This document shows, piece by piece, positions 36,828 to 43,747 of a stretch of 64,000 nt of DNA. This stretch comes from Candidatus Altimarinota bacterium. Its GTDB lineage: Bacteria; Patescibacteriota; Gracilibacteria; UBA4473. The stretch covers positions 1 to 64,000 of the forward strand of contig JAIPJB010000001.1 of the NCBI GenBank assembly GCA_021734395.1, read 5' to 3'. The position numbers and the translations under genes are program-made. The notes under the pieces are model-generated. The model did not search any database. It had not been told where the DNA came from and saw only the letters and a program-made list of their open reading frames with translations. Within the stretch, counting starts at the first letter, position 1. Every line of letters begins with the position of its first letter.

Positions 36828-38183
36828 ATGCGAAATCTCGAAGACAAAAATCTGAATTCCGAACAAGAAAACCCTGAAGCACATCCCCCCTTTCAAGAAA
36901 ATATACAAAATCTGATCGATGAGATTTCTCGCTATGGAGTGAAAGAACTCCCTTCTGATTTTTTTACAGAGGAAAAAATAGAGCTCTTGCAAAAAGCGCT
37001 CTTTTTTTTCGAGGAACGCTTTGATTCACAAAAAATAGAAAAAATAAATACAGAGAGTTTCTTCGCTCTTCTGGATACCGAGAATCGAACAACCGAAGAC
37101 AATGCCCATCTCTTTGCTTTTATAGAACAGATAAGAGTGTTTTTGGAATTGGCTGAAAGAGACAGGGAAAAAGAAGAGAATATCAAAAAAGAATTGTCTT
37201 CTATCCTCACGGCTTTTTCCGAATTAGAATCGTTTTCTCCCCAAACACTCTTTACCGAAAAAATTCTTTCTCTCTCACAAGAAGAAAAGGAAAAAATACA
37301 GCAGGAGGTAAATATAATCAAAGCAATCATCCCAAAAATCAGAAGTCTGAGTAATTACAATCCTATTCCGAGATCTTTTGATCATGATTCCGCGATGGCC
37401 TTTCAGCCATTTGTAAACACTCTTCCTCTTGTTCTTGATGCCCCAGAAGAAGATTCTCCGGATATAAAGGAGTTATTACAGTCGGAATCTTTTGAGCGCT
37501 ATCATCAACAATTTGTTGAAGTAAAATATTGGCTTTTCGTTCTCGCTGAAAAATTAGGAATCAATCATAAAAAAATTTCTCTTTCAGAATTTTCTACTGA
37601 TCTGCGATCTTTTGAGGAATATAGCTTCTCAAGAACTCGAGAAAACGAAAATGCACAAGAGTACAAAACTCATATTGATTTTGAAATATCTCCTGAAGAA
37701 TTAAACAAAAATGTCCCCCTGTCAGGGGAATTATTTTGGAAATTTCTCAATGGTATTCGAAATGCAGCTATTCACGGCAATGCCAATACAATAAAAGCAA
37801 GAATAAACAGCGACACTTCTGAAGACGAAATAGAAATTAAAATTCTCGATAACGGATCTGGAATTGATCGGCAAAAAGTTTTGACTGTGGCAAAAGAAAA
37901 AAATGTTCTTCCCGATTCTCTTTCTTCTCTGTCGGATCAAGAAATAGATAACCTTGTATTTCATCCCAAAATTTCTACCAGTAGTACTGGATTAGGTCTT
38001 AAAATTTTTACGCGTGGTTTCGCCGAAAGAGGGCACTTACAAATGAAGGGAGATGACGGACTCCCAAATAAAACAGGTGGTTTCGGAGCAAAATTAATAC
38101 TGAGTATCCGAAAAGGAAGAGAACAATGTCCAGATTCTACTCAAGAAAAAGTAGAAGCCGTTCTGGCGGAATCAGCAAAATAG
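36828..38183 (+). CDS. GHKL-type ATPase, histidine-kinase-like without clear phosphoacceptor domain
   Basis: A 451-residue soluble protein. The first 230 residues are a Glu/Lys-rich helical region with no PAS, HAMP or membrane segment. The C-terminal 170 residues are a HATPase_c domain: N box FLNGIRNAAIHGNA (N308, N312), G1 box ILDNGSGID near 340, G2 box STGLGLKIF near 381, and GGFGAKLILSI. No typical H-box (HExxxP or similar) precedes the ATPase. It may be a variant histidine kinase, an anti-sigma-type kinase or an ATPase with another role. No response regulator is next to it. Confidence 0.7.
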   Translation: MRNLEDKNLNSEQENPEAHPPFQENIQNLIDEISRYGVKELPSDFFTEEKIELLQKALFFFEERFDSQKIEKINTESFFALLDTENRTTEDNAHLFAFIEQIRVFLELAERDREKEENIKKELSSILTAFSELESFSPQTLFTEKILSLSQEEKEKIQQEVNIIKAIIPKIRSLSNYNPIPRSFDHDSAMAFQPFVNTLPLVLDAPEEDSPDIKELLQSESFERYHQQFVEVKYWLFVLAEKLGINHKKISLSEFSTDLRSFEEYSFSRTRENENAQEYKTHIDFEISPEELNKNVPLSGELFWKFLNGIRNAAIHGNANTIKARINSDTSEDEIEIKILDNGSGIDRQKVLTVAKEKNVLPDSLSSLSDQEIDNLVFHPKISTSSTGLGLKIFTRGFAERGHLQMKGDDGLPNKTGGFGAKLILSIRKGREQCPDSTQEKVEAVLAESAK

Positions 38184-40271: not shown

Positions 40272-42026
40272 TTATTTCAATAATCCTAAAAACTCTTCCA
40301 TTTTCATTGCTTGGTCTTTCTCTTCCCCATACCGACGAACGGTTACTGTTGTATCGTTTACTTCCTTGTCCCCGACGATCAGAGCAAACGGAATTTTTTG
40401 TTTCTGAGAGTTTCTGATACGTTTCCCCAGTGTTTCAGAAGCGTCGTGCAGCTCAGCACGACCATTCACATTTTCTATTTGTTGAAGAATTTGTGCGGCA
40501 TATTTCTCATGCTGACCAGCGACCGGCAAAATATGGGCCTGTACCGGTGCCAGCCATGAAGGAAATGCTCCGGCAAAATGCTCGATAATCACCGACATAA
40601 ATCGTTCCAGAGATCCGGCAATAGCTCGATGAATCATGATGGGACGATCCTTTTCGCCTTTTTCATTGATGTATTCCAATCCAAACCGTTCTGGCATAAC
40701 AAAGTCAATCTGAATAGTTGCTAATTGCCATTCTCGTCCTAATGCATCCTGGAACATAAAATCCAATTTTGGCCCGTAAAAAGCTGCTTCTCCTTCGATT
40801 CGTTTGGCATGAAGTTTTTCTTCTTTTGCTATCTCCTCCAAAAATTTCTCCGCTTTCTCCCAATTTTTGGGATCACCGAGATATTTCTCGATTTCTTGGG
40901 GATCTCGTACCGAAAGGGAAACCCAAAACTTTCCTTCTTCGAACATACCCAGTTTCGTATAAAATTCACGAACGACTTTCACAATATTACAGGCTTCTTG
41001 TTTTACCTGATCCATACGACAAAACACGTGCCCGTCATCTTGAGTCAGCGAACGCACACGAGAAAGTCCCAAAAGTTCTCCTGGCTGTTCGTCTCGATAG
41101 CAAGTCGTGACTTCACTGAAACGCACCGGCAAATCTCGGTACGAACGCATCTGTGAGGCATAAATCTGTGTGTGATGCGGACAGTTCATGGGTTTCATCA
41201 CGAATTCCGTATCACCTTTCCCTTTCACGTGAAACAGATCTTCTTTGAATTTCTGCCAATGCCCGGAGGTTTCGTAGAGATCTTTCTTGGTAATGTGCGG
41301 AATACAGACCTTTTCGTATCCGTATTGCTCTTGGATTTCTTGGATTGTGTCGGCAATTTTATTCCGAATAAATGTTCCTTTGGGTGTAAAAAGCGGCAGT
41401 CCGGCACCGACTTTCTCGGAAAAGGCAAAGAGTCCCAATTCTGCGCCCAATTTTCGATGATCTCGACGTTCGGCTTCGGCGAGCATCTCTTCGTATTTTT
41501 GAAGTTCTTCTTTATCTTTGAAAGCTACCCCGTAAATACGGGTCAGCATTTTATTGTTTTCATTCCCTCGCCAGTACGCTCCAGCTAAGCGAGTTAATTT
41601 AAAAACGCCCAGCTGTCCTGTAGATTCCAAATGCGGCCCCGCGCACAAATCATCATAAAAAACATTGTCTCTCTCATCCGCAAATGCATAAATACTGATT
41701 TTTTCACCTTTTTCTTCCAGCCCGCGAATGAGTTCTTGCTTGTATTCATCGCCTTCGAAGTGTTCTTTTGCTTCCTTTATTGAACAAATTTTTTGTTCAA
41801 TAGAAAAGTCTTTATTCACAATCCAGCGCATCTTCTTTTCTATTTTTTTAAGATCACTTTCGGAAATCTTTTCTTCTCCGAAATCAAAGTCCTGATAAAA
41901 TTCTTTGTCAGTCCAGGGACCTACACCACGTTTGATGTCGGGAAAAATCATTTTCACCGCTGCGGTCATCACGTGTGACCCAGTATGACGACGGCGAATT
42001 TCGAAGTCGGAAGCAGATTTATTCAT
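40272..42026 (-). CDS. thrS: Threonyl-tRNA synthetase lacking the N-terminal TGS domain
   Basis: Start at ATG 42026 (MNKSASDFEIRRRHTGSHVM). The 584-residue enzyme begins directly with the editing domain (HTGSH as HxxxH; CAGPH as Cys/His ligands), followed by the class II core: motif 1 near GAGLPLFTPKGTFIRNKI, motif 2 FSEVTTCYRDEQPGELLGLSRVRSLTQDDGH, zinc ligand Cys in KPMNCPHH, motif 3 near PIMIHRAIAGSLERFM, and the anticodon-binding domain to the end. Many bacterial ThrS proteins carry an extra TGS domain; this one does not. A leader peptide of seven Thr codons and a terminator precede it. A palindrome shared with guaA lies at 41780-41801. Confidence 0.96.
   Translation of the reverse strand: MNKSASDFEIRRRHTGSHVMTAAVKMIFPDIKRGVGPWTDKEFYQDFDFGEEKISESDLKKIEKKMRWIVNKDFSIEQKICSIKEAKEHFEGDEYKQELIRGLEEKGEKISIYAFADERDNVFYDDLCAGPHLESTGQLGVFKLTRLAGAYWRGNENNKMLTRIYGVAFKDKEELQKYEEMLAEAERRDHRKLGAELGLFAFSEKVGAGLPLFTPKGTFIRNKIADTIQEIQEQYGYEKVCIPHITKKDLYETSGHWQKFKEDLFHVKGKGDTEFVMKPMNCPHHTQIYASQMRSYRDLPVRFSEVTTCYRDEQPGELLGLSRVRSLTQDDGHVFCRMDQVKQEACNIVKVVREFYTKLGMFEEGKFWVSLSVRDPQEIEKYLGDPKNWEKAEKFLEEIAKEEKLHAKRIEGEAAFYGPKLDFMFQDALGREWQLATIQIDFVMPERFGLEYINEKGEKDRPIMIHRAIAGSLERFMSVIIEHFAGAFPSWLAPVQAHILPVAGQHEKYAAQILQQIENVNGRAELHDASETLGKRIRNSQKQKIPFALIVGDKEVNDTTVTVRRYGEEKDQAMKMEEFLGLLK
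41780..41801. repeat. AT-rich palindrome shared with guaA (copy in thrS)
   Basis: Same 22 bases as 18283-18304 (core GAACAAATTTTTTGTTC), read as IEQKICSI in thrS. The region falls within the editing domain (SIEQKICSIKEAKEHF). Confidence 0.7.
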
Positions 42027-42084
42027 GGTGGTGAAATTATAGTTCTTTTTTGCCTCTCTGAGTACCCCTCGTTTACTCAAGAGA

Positions 42085-42113
42085 ATAATAAAAAATCTCC
42101 GCTTTCACGGAGA
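42085..42113 (-). terminator. Attenuator terminator upstream of thrS
   Basis: On the minus strand, TCTCCG-TGAAAG-CGGAGA (42113-42096) is followed by TTTTTTATT (42095-42087), a Rho-independent terminator 60-70 bases before the thrS start. Its 5' arm (42104-42113) can instead pair with 42131-42140, forming the antiterminator. Confidence 0.85.
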
Positions 42114-42140
42114 AAAGGTGCACGACCATGTCTCCGTGAA
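42104..42140 (-). promoter_or_regulatory. Antiterminator hairpin of the thrS leader
   Basis: TTCACGGAGA (minus strand, 42140-42131) is an exact 10-base complement of TCTCCGTGAA (42113-42104). This stem excludes the terminator. The 5' arm begins one base after the leader-peptide stop codon (42143-42141), so a ribosome that finishes the leader would cover it, while one stalled in the Thr run would leave it free. Confidence 0.8.
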
Positions 42141-42182
42141 TTACGGGTGAGTTGTGGTGGTCGTGGTGGTGATATTTCTCAC
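42141..42182 (-). CDS. thrS leader peptide with seven consecutive Thr codons
   Basis: GTG at 42182, then AGA AAT ATC, seven threonine codons (ACC ACC ACG ACC ACC ACA ACT), CAC CCG and TAA (42143-42141): peptide MRNITTTTTTTHP. An in-frame stop lies four codons upstream, so the frame is confined to this peptide. No Shine-Dalgarno is evident; TAAACT 6 bases before the GTG suggests a leaderless start. The run of the cognate amino acid before thrS, with switchable hairpins just downstream, is the layout of classic amino-acid attenuation, as in E. coli thrL. It would let thrS be made when charged tRNA-Thr is scarce. Confidence 0.8.
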   Translation of the reverse strand: MRNITTTTTTTHP

Positions 42183-42284
42183 GAAGTCAGTTTAGTGAAA
42201 AAACAGAAAAAGCAAAAATAAAATTCATGTTCAGTCTATAATTCTTTTTTGTTTTTATTTTTGTAAAATTTTTATAATATTTTT

Positions 42285-42660
42285 GTCATCCCGCATTTAT
42301 TGCGGGATCTAACCTTCACAAATGCGAAAATTATATTATGTATATCTCCTTACGAACCCCACCAGAACGGTTTTTTATGTTGGAGTTACGAATAATTTAA
42401 TAAGACGTTGTTACGAACATAAAAATAAACTCATTGATGGATTCACAAAAAAATATAATTGTTCCCAACTTATGTACTTTGAAGAAACCAATGATATATC
42501 TATAGCCATAACAAGAGAAAAACAGCTCAAACACTATTCTCAAAAATGGAAATCAAATCTTATTCGGGAAATAAATCCTGAGTGGCGAGATTTGAGTTCT
42601 GATTTTTTATAATTCAGAATGTTCTTTCCTGTTTAGACCCCGGAACAAGTCCAGGGTGAC
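42285..42660. mobile_element. GIY-YIG cassette 3 with palindromic ends
   Basis: A 376-bp unit starting GTCATCCCGCATTTATTGCG (closed by GGATCT) and ending with a GACCCCGGAACAAGTCCAGG-GTGAC palindrome. It encloses the GIY-YIG gene at 42322-42612 and stands alone between thrS and gapA, far from the other two cassettes. The lone placement supports the idea that gene plus palindromes is the unit. Confidence 0.5.
42322..42612 (+). CDS. Small GIY-YIG nuclease-domain protein
   Basis: 96 residues: LYYVYLLTNPTRT (GIY position), VFYVGVTNNLIRRCYEHK (YIG position changed to YVG, catalytic Arg and His kept), DGFTKKYNCSQLMYFEE, AITREKQLKHYSQKW with the metal-site Glu, and ending NPEWRDLSSDFL, nearly the same end as the copy at 3070. 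The start codon lies 11 bases after the 5' palindrome. Confidence 0.9.
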   Translation: MRKLYYVYLLTNPTRTVFYVGVTNNLIRRCYEHKNKLIDGFTKKYNCSQLMYFEETNDISIAITREKQLKHYSQKWKSNLIREINPEWRDLSSDFL

Positions 42661-42742: not shown

Positions 42743-43747
42743 ATGAGTAAAAAACGCATCGCTATCAATGGCTTTGGCCGTATCGGTCGGGCTGCAGCTC
42801 GGATAATCCTTCACGATCATGCCGATGATTTAGAGTTAGTCGCCATTAATGATCCCTCTCCCACCGAAACCTCTGCACATCTTTTCGAATTCGATTCCAA
42901 TTACGGCCGATATCCCGGAACCGTAAAAGTGGAAAAAGACGGCACAGTTCTGGATATCAACGGCACAAAAGTAAAGAAATTTACCACACGTGAGATCTCA
43001 GAACTTCCTTGGGGAGAATTAGGAATTGATGTTGTACTAGAGTGTACCGGTGTTTTTCGAAAAGGATCTCAGTGTGAGCCTCATCTCAAGCAAGGAGCCA
43101 AAAAAGTACTTTTGTCCGCTCCCGCCAAAGACGACCAATTCAAAACATTTGTCTTGGGCGTGAATGACCAAAACCTTACGGGAGAAGAAAAATTTATTTC
43201 GTGTGCTTCCTGTACGACCAATGGTTTGGCTCCTGTGGCGAAAGTTCTGCATGAAAATTTCGAAATTGTATCAGGTTTAATGACCACCATTCATGCCTAC
43301 ACCAACGATCAGAGGATTCTGGACGTAGGACATAAAGATCTCCGTCGAGCACGCGCCGCGGCTCTCAATATGATCCCGACTTCTACCGGAGCGGCAAAAG
43401 CCGTGGGGCTTGTCCTGCCCGAACTCAATGGAAAACTGAACGGCTTGGCTGTTCGCGTCCCAACGCCAACCGTTTCGCTGATCGATCTCACCGTCAAGCT
43501 CGGGAAAAAAGTGACTGTCGATCAGGTAAATGCTGCCCTCAAAAAAGCATCCGACTCCATGCCTCATATTTTGGGATACGAAGAACGTCCCCTGGTTTCA
43601 CTCGACTACAAAGGAGACAGCCGGAGTTCTATTGTCGATGCCGCCGAAACCAAAGTCATCGGTGATGACTTGGTTAAAATTTTGGCCTGGTATGACAATG
43701 AATGGGGCTACAGTTGCCGACTTGTCGAACTCGCGGCAAAACTCTAG
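42743..43747 (+). CDS. gapA: Glyceraldehyde-3-phosphate dehydrogenase
   Basis: A 334-residue GAPDH of normal length. NAD fold NGFGRIGRAAARI at the N-terminus; catalytic C157 in SCASCTTNGLAP; HAYTNDQ; the phosphate sites in RRARAAALNMIPTSTGAAKAVGLVLPEL; and WYDNEWGYSCRLVEL near the end. Residue after strand 2 (VAINDP) suggests NAD preference. It catalyses the NAD-linked step of lower glycolysis, the main energy route in many CPR. Its stop overlaps the convergent gene's stop by 4 bases. Confidence 0.97.
   Translation: MSKKRIAINGFGRIGRAAARIILHDHADDLELVAINDPSPTETSAHLFEFDSNYGRYPGTVKVEKDGTVLDINGTKVKKFTTREISELPWGELGIDVVLECTGVFRKGSQCEPHLKQGAKKVLLSAPAKDDQFKTFVLGVNDQNLTGEEKFISCASCTTNGLAPVAKVLHENFEIVSGLMTTIHAYTNDQRILDVGHKDLRRARAAALNMIPTSTGAAKAVGLVLPELNGKLNGLAVRVPTPTVSLIDLTVKLGKKVTVDQVNAALKKASDSMPHILGYEERPLVSLDYKGDSRSSIVDAAETKVIGDDLVKILAWYDNEWGYSCRLVELAAKL

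Follow-up and report, generated by a model that had tools for sequence, protein, structure and literature searches.

The thr, trp, his and phe operons of Escherichia coli share with the locus described here several successive codons for the amino acid concerned, a terminator and an antiterminator that exclude each other and, as proposed for our locus, the use of ribosome position as the sensor. Unlike in these biosynthetic operons, the gene concerned here encodes a tRNA synthetase, its leader is probably leaderless and the host belongs to the Gracilibacteria. The pheST genes of E. coli are attenuated via the pheM leader, so that there, as probably here, a synthetase gene is controlled through codons for its own amino acid, the pair being Phe and pheST in that case and Thr and thrS in ours. 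E. coli thrS is autoregulated by binding of ThrS to an operator on its own mRNA, for which the N-terminal domains of the enzyme are needed, the TGS domain being part of the operator-binding region. Attenuators are also said to have been the subject of comparative work by Vitreschak et al. in 2004.

Predicted attenuation of synthetase genes outside the Proteobacteria has likewise been described in bacilli, where his leader peptides were predicted at hisS paralogues and at hisZ (PMC2965389), and in Streptomyces, where attenuators were predicted for leuS and trpS (PMC1262725), that is, for other amino acids and in other phyla. In Streptomyces lividans TK24, a leaderless thrL was reported before thrS; two of its 18 codons are for Thr, and a clear terminator is lacking there (PMC8079986). 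A leader peptide upstream of thrS, leaderless there and probably so here, is common to that system and ours, the difference being that up to nine consecutive Thr codons and a clear terminator and antiterminator are found here. Additionally, the passages of PMC9031893 on Canestrari et al. 2020 describe leaderless poly-Cys short ORFs of mycobacteria that control the translation of downstream genes. As far as those passages go, the resemblance lies in a leaderless leader ORF whose run of one codon would act as amino-acid sensor, with translation controlled there and, in the proposed mechanism, transcription termination here.

The region upstream of thrS in the window (the whole stretch of 64,000 nucleotides that was analyzed) is very probably an attenuator at which the position of a ribosome decides on transcription, so that thrS expression would follow the amount of charged tRNA-Thr available. 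Such ribosome-mediated attenuation is a classical mechanism, known elsewhere, and the clade is what is new. The sequence-only reading that preceded this analysis had considered leader-peptide attenuation of thrS undescribed in CPR bacteria; the open-access literature, to which our search was largely confined since most subscription papers lay outside it, contained no report of such an attenuator in CPR bacteria, and the claim needs qualifying in that thrS leader peptides are not wholly without precedent, given S. lividans thrL. Very little is known about gene regulation in small-genome CPR bacteria, and a conserved attenuator would imply tight coupling of transcription and translation as well as sensing of charged tRNA in these organisms. 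It would also extend leader-peptide attenuation past the Proteobacteria, Actinobacteria and Firmicutes, and tie amino-acid sensing to leaderless translation.

The identity of the downstream gene product as ThrS was confirmed by the Pfam domains tRNA_SAD, tRNA-synt_2b and HGTP_anticodon, which correspond to the SAD, catalytic and anticodon-binding domains; a TGS domain was not detected in the window ThrS by the Pfam domain search. The upstream neighbors, a GIY-YIG nuclease gene (42322-42612) and gapA (42743-43747), lie divergently on the opposite strand, and the terminator therefore cannot serve an upstream gene. As it sits between thrS and any promoter that could drive the leader, it can act solely as a premature terminator. 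The features of the region are compiled in Table 1, and the coordinates that the sequence-only reading had given for the leader, the arms and the terminator were all found to be correct when the minus strand was read again.

Table 1. Positions of features in the thrS leader region of the window and of the argG leader elsewhere in the host genome.
Feature	Position	Strand	Remarks
thrS, threonyl-tRNA synthetase	40272..42026	minus	584 aa; PF07973, PF00587, PF03129
Leader peptide ORF MRNITTTTTTTHP	42141..42182	minus	13 codons; GTG start 42182-42180; stop TAA 42143-42141; sequence read directly
Thr run	42170-42150	minus	ACC ACC ACG ACC ACC ACA ACT, consecutive
Arm A TTCACGGAGA, antiterminator 5' arm	42131..42140	minus	begins 1 nt past the leader stop
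Arm B TCTCCGTGAA	42104..42113	minus	common to antiterminator (A:B) and terminator (B:C)
Arm 1 CACGACCA	42158..42165	minus	within the Thr codons; partner is arm 2
Arm 2 TGGTCGTG	42121..42128	minus	complement of arm 1, 8 bp
Intrinsic terminator	42090..42113	minus	TCTCCGT 42113-42107, loop GAAA, GCGGAGA 42102-42096, T6 42095-42090; 7 pairs; based on fold energy and relatives
Putative leader promoter	42189..42216	minus	-35-like TTTGCT 42216-42211; -10-like TAAACT 42194-42189; 16-nt spacer; 6 nt before GTG
Possible second -10 box, TATAAT	42036..42041	minus	9 nt before thrS ATG; downstream of terminator
argG Arg-run leader and intrinsic terminator	G000:C3 ~138018-138060 (L163:1516-1560)		relatives L206-L209, L211, L212, L215

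The leader described by the sequence-only reading, with a GTG start and seven consecutive Thr codons, was borne out in the sequence: the start is followed by AGA AAT ATC, the seven Thr codons, CAC CCG and the stop. Arm A, which had been reported to pair perfectly with the 5' arm of the terminator, is indeed the exact reverse complement of arm B. The A:B duplex was calculated at -16.1 kcal/mol, with none of 200 shuffles of arm A equally good, and the terminator hairpin, including a short upstream stem, had a minimum free energy of -11.8 kcal/mol (z -2.35). Two elements had been overlooked, namely the TATAAT box at thrS and the pairing of arm 1 with arm 2, a duplex of -13.4 kcal/mol in the window for which again 0 of 200 shuffles were equally good. 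This 1:2 pairing is clear in the window and in some relatives (L005, L016, L019) but not in others. The use of GTG as start codon and the absence of a Shine-Dalgarno sequence were counted against the attenuator reading.

At the sequence level, the locus thus presents the defining features of a leader-peptide attenuator: a Thr-rich leader linked to thrS, a terminator between leader and gene, and an antiterminator that excludes the terminator and whose 5' arm a ribosome halted on the stop codon would cover. The 1:2 hairpin is the exception, as not every member has it. In the proposed mechanism, RNA polymerase probably starts at the leader start codon or within a few bases of it, and a ribosome would follow on the leader. 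With ample Thr-tRNA, the ribosome would reach the stop codon and cover arm A, upon which B:C would pair and transcription would end at the T run. When Thr-tRNA is scarce, a ribosome stalled in the Thr run would block arm 1 and leave arm A free to pair with arm B, so that the terminator would be prevented and thrS transcribed. If no ribosome is present, 1:2 pairing in many members would separate A from B and lead to default termination, a default that is less clear in the window.

These states were modelled for 19 members by partition functions of equilibrium folding from which the ribosome footprint had been removed. For a ribosome placed on the stop codon, the mean predicted A:B probability was 0.00, with little or no antiterminator in any member, and that of B:C was 0.91, the exception being L064, where the terminator reached 0.10. 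Stalling at the fourth Thr codon gave means of 0.56 for A:B versus 0.32 for B:C, and three loci (L005, L012, L043) still favored the terminator in this state at equilibrium, which was counted against the reading. Without a ribosome, the terminator prevailed in most members (0.68), owing to pairing of the Thr codons with the sequence that follows arm A. The window itself was predicted to form the antiterminator at 0.98 when stalled and the terminator at 0.98 at the stop, in agreement with the direction of switching that the sequence-only reading had proposed. Its antiterminator value without a ribosome, 0.68, would drop if the 1:2 pairing forms first during transcription, a case that goes beyond equilibrium folding.

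The thrS gene was searched for in the family, class and phylum of the window's organism and the upstream regions were read; the search in the order returned members of the same family only. Within the family, upstream sequence of sufficient length was available for 17 thrS loci. A Thr-rich leader occupies the corresponding place in 13 of them, and all 13 have a counterpart of the terminator. Amongst these leaders are MKSTTTTTTTTTE, MKNTTTTTTTITE, MINVTATTTTT, VKTIATTTTTYTD and MFVSCTCTTTRTTG, so the Thr run is kept in relatives, which the sequence-only reading had proposed as a check. The leader is absent in at least four of the 17 (L006, L011, L013, L014), and most other members of the class also lack it, both of which were counted against the attenuator reading. 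The full layout, defined as a Thr-rich ORF, arm A at its stop, arm B and the terminator, was found before thrS in 20 of the 89 loci sampled from the class when at least four Thr are required, with differing sequences and with one weak case (L079), and in 19 of 89 versus none in shuffles when at least five are required. The same layout with any other amino acid was found in at most one of the 89 loci, and ten sets of shuffled sequences yielded none. Thr runs in the leaders extend up to nine in a row, and arm A begins between -3 and +6 nt from the stop codon in almost every relative that has a leader. Additional likely cases, among them TGA-recoded members with leaders such as MLAQLETTTPISLF, lie below the thresholds. 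In other classes, the layout was seen in just one of 40 thrS upstream regions (L194, MKSLIVITTNTTTL).

The arms were also found to covary amongst these genomes, as the sequence-only reading had suggested should be examined. Their sequences vary by lineage (CGGAGG, TGGTGGGA, GTTAGTCAG, TGCAGAGGG, GGCTCT) and both the A:B and the B:C pairings are kept. The mean A:B energy was -14.7 kcal/mol for the own arms of a locus versus -8.45 kcal/mol when B arms were swapped between loci, and the corresponding B:C means were -12.3 and -7.3 kcal/mol; the counts of permutations that equalled the observed value (0 of 20000 for either pairing, 0 of 20000 for the family alone and 5 of 20000 for the seven other loci) are not strict probabilities because the loci share ancestry. 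In an alignment of 12 sequences, 88.7% of cells were paired in A:B and 84.5% in B:C, and displacing the helices by 1-3 columns gave 44-56% for A:B and 25-59% for B:C. Each helix has three pairs changed on both sides.

Transcription starting downstream of 42140 had been named by the sequence-only reading as an argument against attenuation. On this point, the predicted promoters of relatives, which lie just upstream of the leader, favor the attenuator, and the window's own promoter does not, being weak and not standing out from control positions there, which was counted against the reading. Of the 13 family leaders, 12 are preceded by a promoter-like pair, as are those of L044 and L064, with TAnnnT (or CATACT) as the -10 element and, in most, TTGACA or TTGACT as the -35 element; 7-10 nt separate its end from the leader start codon. 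This spacing suggests that the leader mRNA is probably leaderless. Across the whole genome, positions 6-9 nt ahead of gene starts show an approximately two- to four-fold enrichment of TANNNT, and just 7% of the starts have a Shine-Dalgarno-like motif. Leaderless mRNAs thus look common in this organism.

Both strands of the six contigs of the host genome (1,022,355 bases) were scanned in two ways, once for single-amino-acid runs in short ORFs ahead of a terminator and once for short ORFs that end directly at an arm able to pair with a terminator. The thrS leader ranked first in every ranking of both scans, and it is the sole locus with a run of seven, present as a single copy in the genome. Two Phe-containing candidates were dropped: a Phe-rich frame just upstream of the leader (MNFIFAFSVFSLN, ATG ~42228 to TGA ~42187), which is absent before the leaders of relatives, and a Phe-run ORF before a ribonucleotide-reductase-like gene, where the amino acid does not match the gene.

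Several other explanations for this arrangement were weighed. Isolated short ORFs occur often, whatever their composition, and a random Thr-rich ORF could in principle lie beside a terminator; such a coincidence has a negligible probability and is refuted by the absence of the layout from shuffled sequences as compared with its 20 occurrences in 89 loci, by the control with other amino acids, by the position of the leader at the top of the genome-wide scan and by its conservation across families. The terminator might also be regulated by ThrS, as the autoregulation of thrS in E. coli would suggest, or by another protein binding the leader RNA, with the Thr-rich ORF left untranslated. Conservation at these loci, however, tracks the reading frame (the start, Thr specified by varied synonymous codons, and the stop directly before arm A), and protein binding gives no reason for arm A to follow a stop codon. 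As the window ThrS has no detected TGS domain and operator binding in E. coli needs the N-terminal domains, control of this type is considered highly improbable. Still further down the scale, though above mere coincidence, comes a T-box or another tRNA-binding riboswitch, to which we would give hardly any weight. A T-box governs thrS in Firmicutes, and a terminator with an antiterminator is common to both types of control, but no T-box covariance-model match was found in the whole genome while control genomes did match, and the leader region had neither an Rfam match at the curated threshold nor a credible weak match, including to Thr_leader and other leaders. Moreover, leader and terminator lie too close together to accommodate a T-box, the model of which has 219 positions, and the Thr codons lie within a conserved ORF.

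The most substantial of these alternatives, though still an unlikely one, leaves the attenuator intact and makes it minor in this genome, with thrS transcribed mainly from a leaderless promoter at the TATAAT box. The position of this box is the one enriched genome-wide, which makes a second promoter possible and with it a leaderless thrS mRNA that would bypass the attenuator. The weakness of the window's leader promoter and the occurrence of TAnnnT at the same place in some relatives (L016, L017) point the same way. Against it stand the poor match of the -35 element (TACTCA), the lack of such a box in several relatives that bear the attenuator, and the intact arms and Thr run in the window, which imply selection. 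The possibility of this bypass is the chief reservation as to the strength of control that the switch would exert over thrS in the window's genome, the attenuator itself remaining the preferred reading.

The genome scan additionally revealed a short ORF ending in RRRR upstream of argG, and of the 11 argG loci in the family eight have an Arg-run leader, with MHLFAMVSQLRRRR, MNFKVLFTNLRRRP, MNIWNLVSQLRRRRL and MDYTKLYLHARRRRYRCAG among them. These leaders mostly have TTGACA promoters at the spacing seen at thrS leaders, and a clear terminator follows seven of the eight, the one after L215 being weak. The arm at the stop codon pairs clearly in some of the loci. Judged from these sequences, argG, the gene for argininosuccinate synthase, is probably controlled by an arginine attenuator. 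It seems somewhat likely that attenuation through leaderless leaders is general in Gracilibacteria, with Thr and thrS across many families and Arg and argG in at least one, in small CPR genomes that seemingly rely largely on leaderless, Shine-Dalgarno-free initiation. The thrS locus gains interest from the clade in which it occurs and from seeming to be part of such a wider habit of the group.

Elsewhere in the host genome, a Leu/Phe-rich short ORF, MFLWTIHTDDIKHFLFLLFLETG (G000:C1 ~37114-37256, scan hit at C1 ~37184, L133:17614-17755), has an arm at its stop codon that pairs with the following terminator. The gene after it encodes a 156-aa protein, and no correspondence was seen between this gene and the amino acids of the ORF. 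From its sequence, this locus is a possible further attenuator.

Many members of the class read TGA as a sense codon in thrS, a trait that points to the Gracilibacteria, while TGA is a stop in the window's own family. Six TGA-recoded loci (L083, L084, L086-L088, L098) have leaders that share, beyond the Thr codons, a common N-terminal LAxLxT, as in MLAQLETTT, LALLVTTPTT, SLAQLVTTTT and VALLVTSIVTTT. In those members, the peptide itself may matter.
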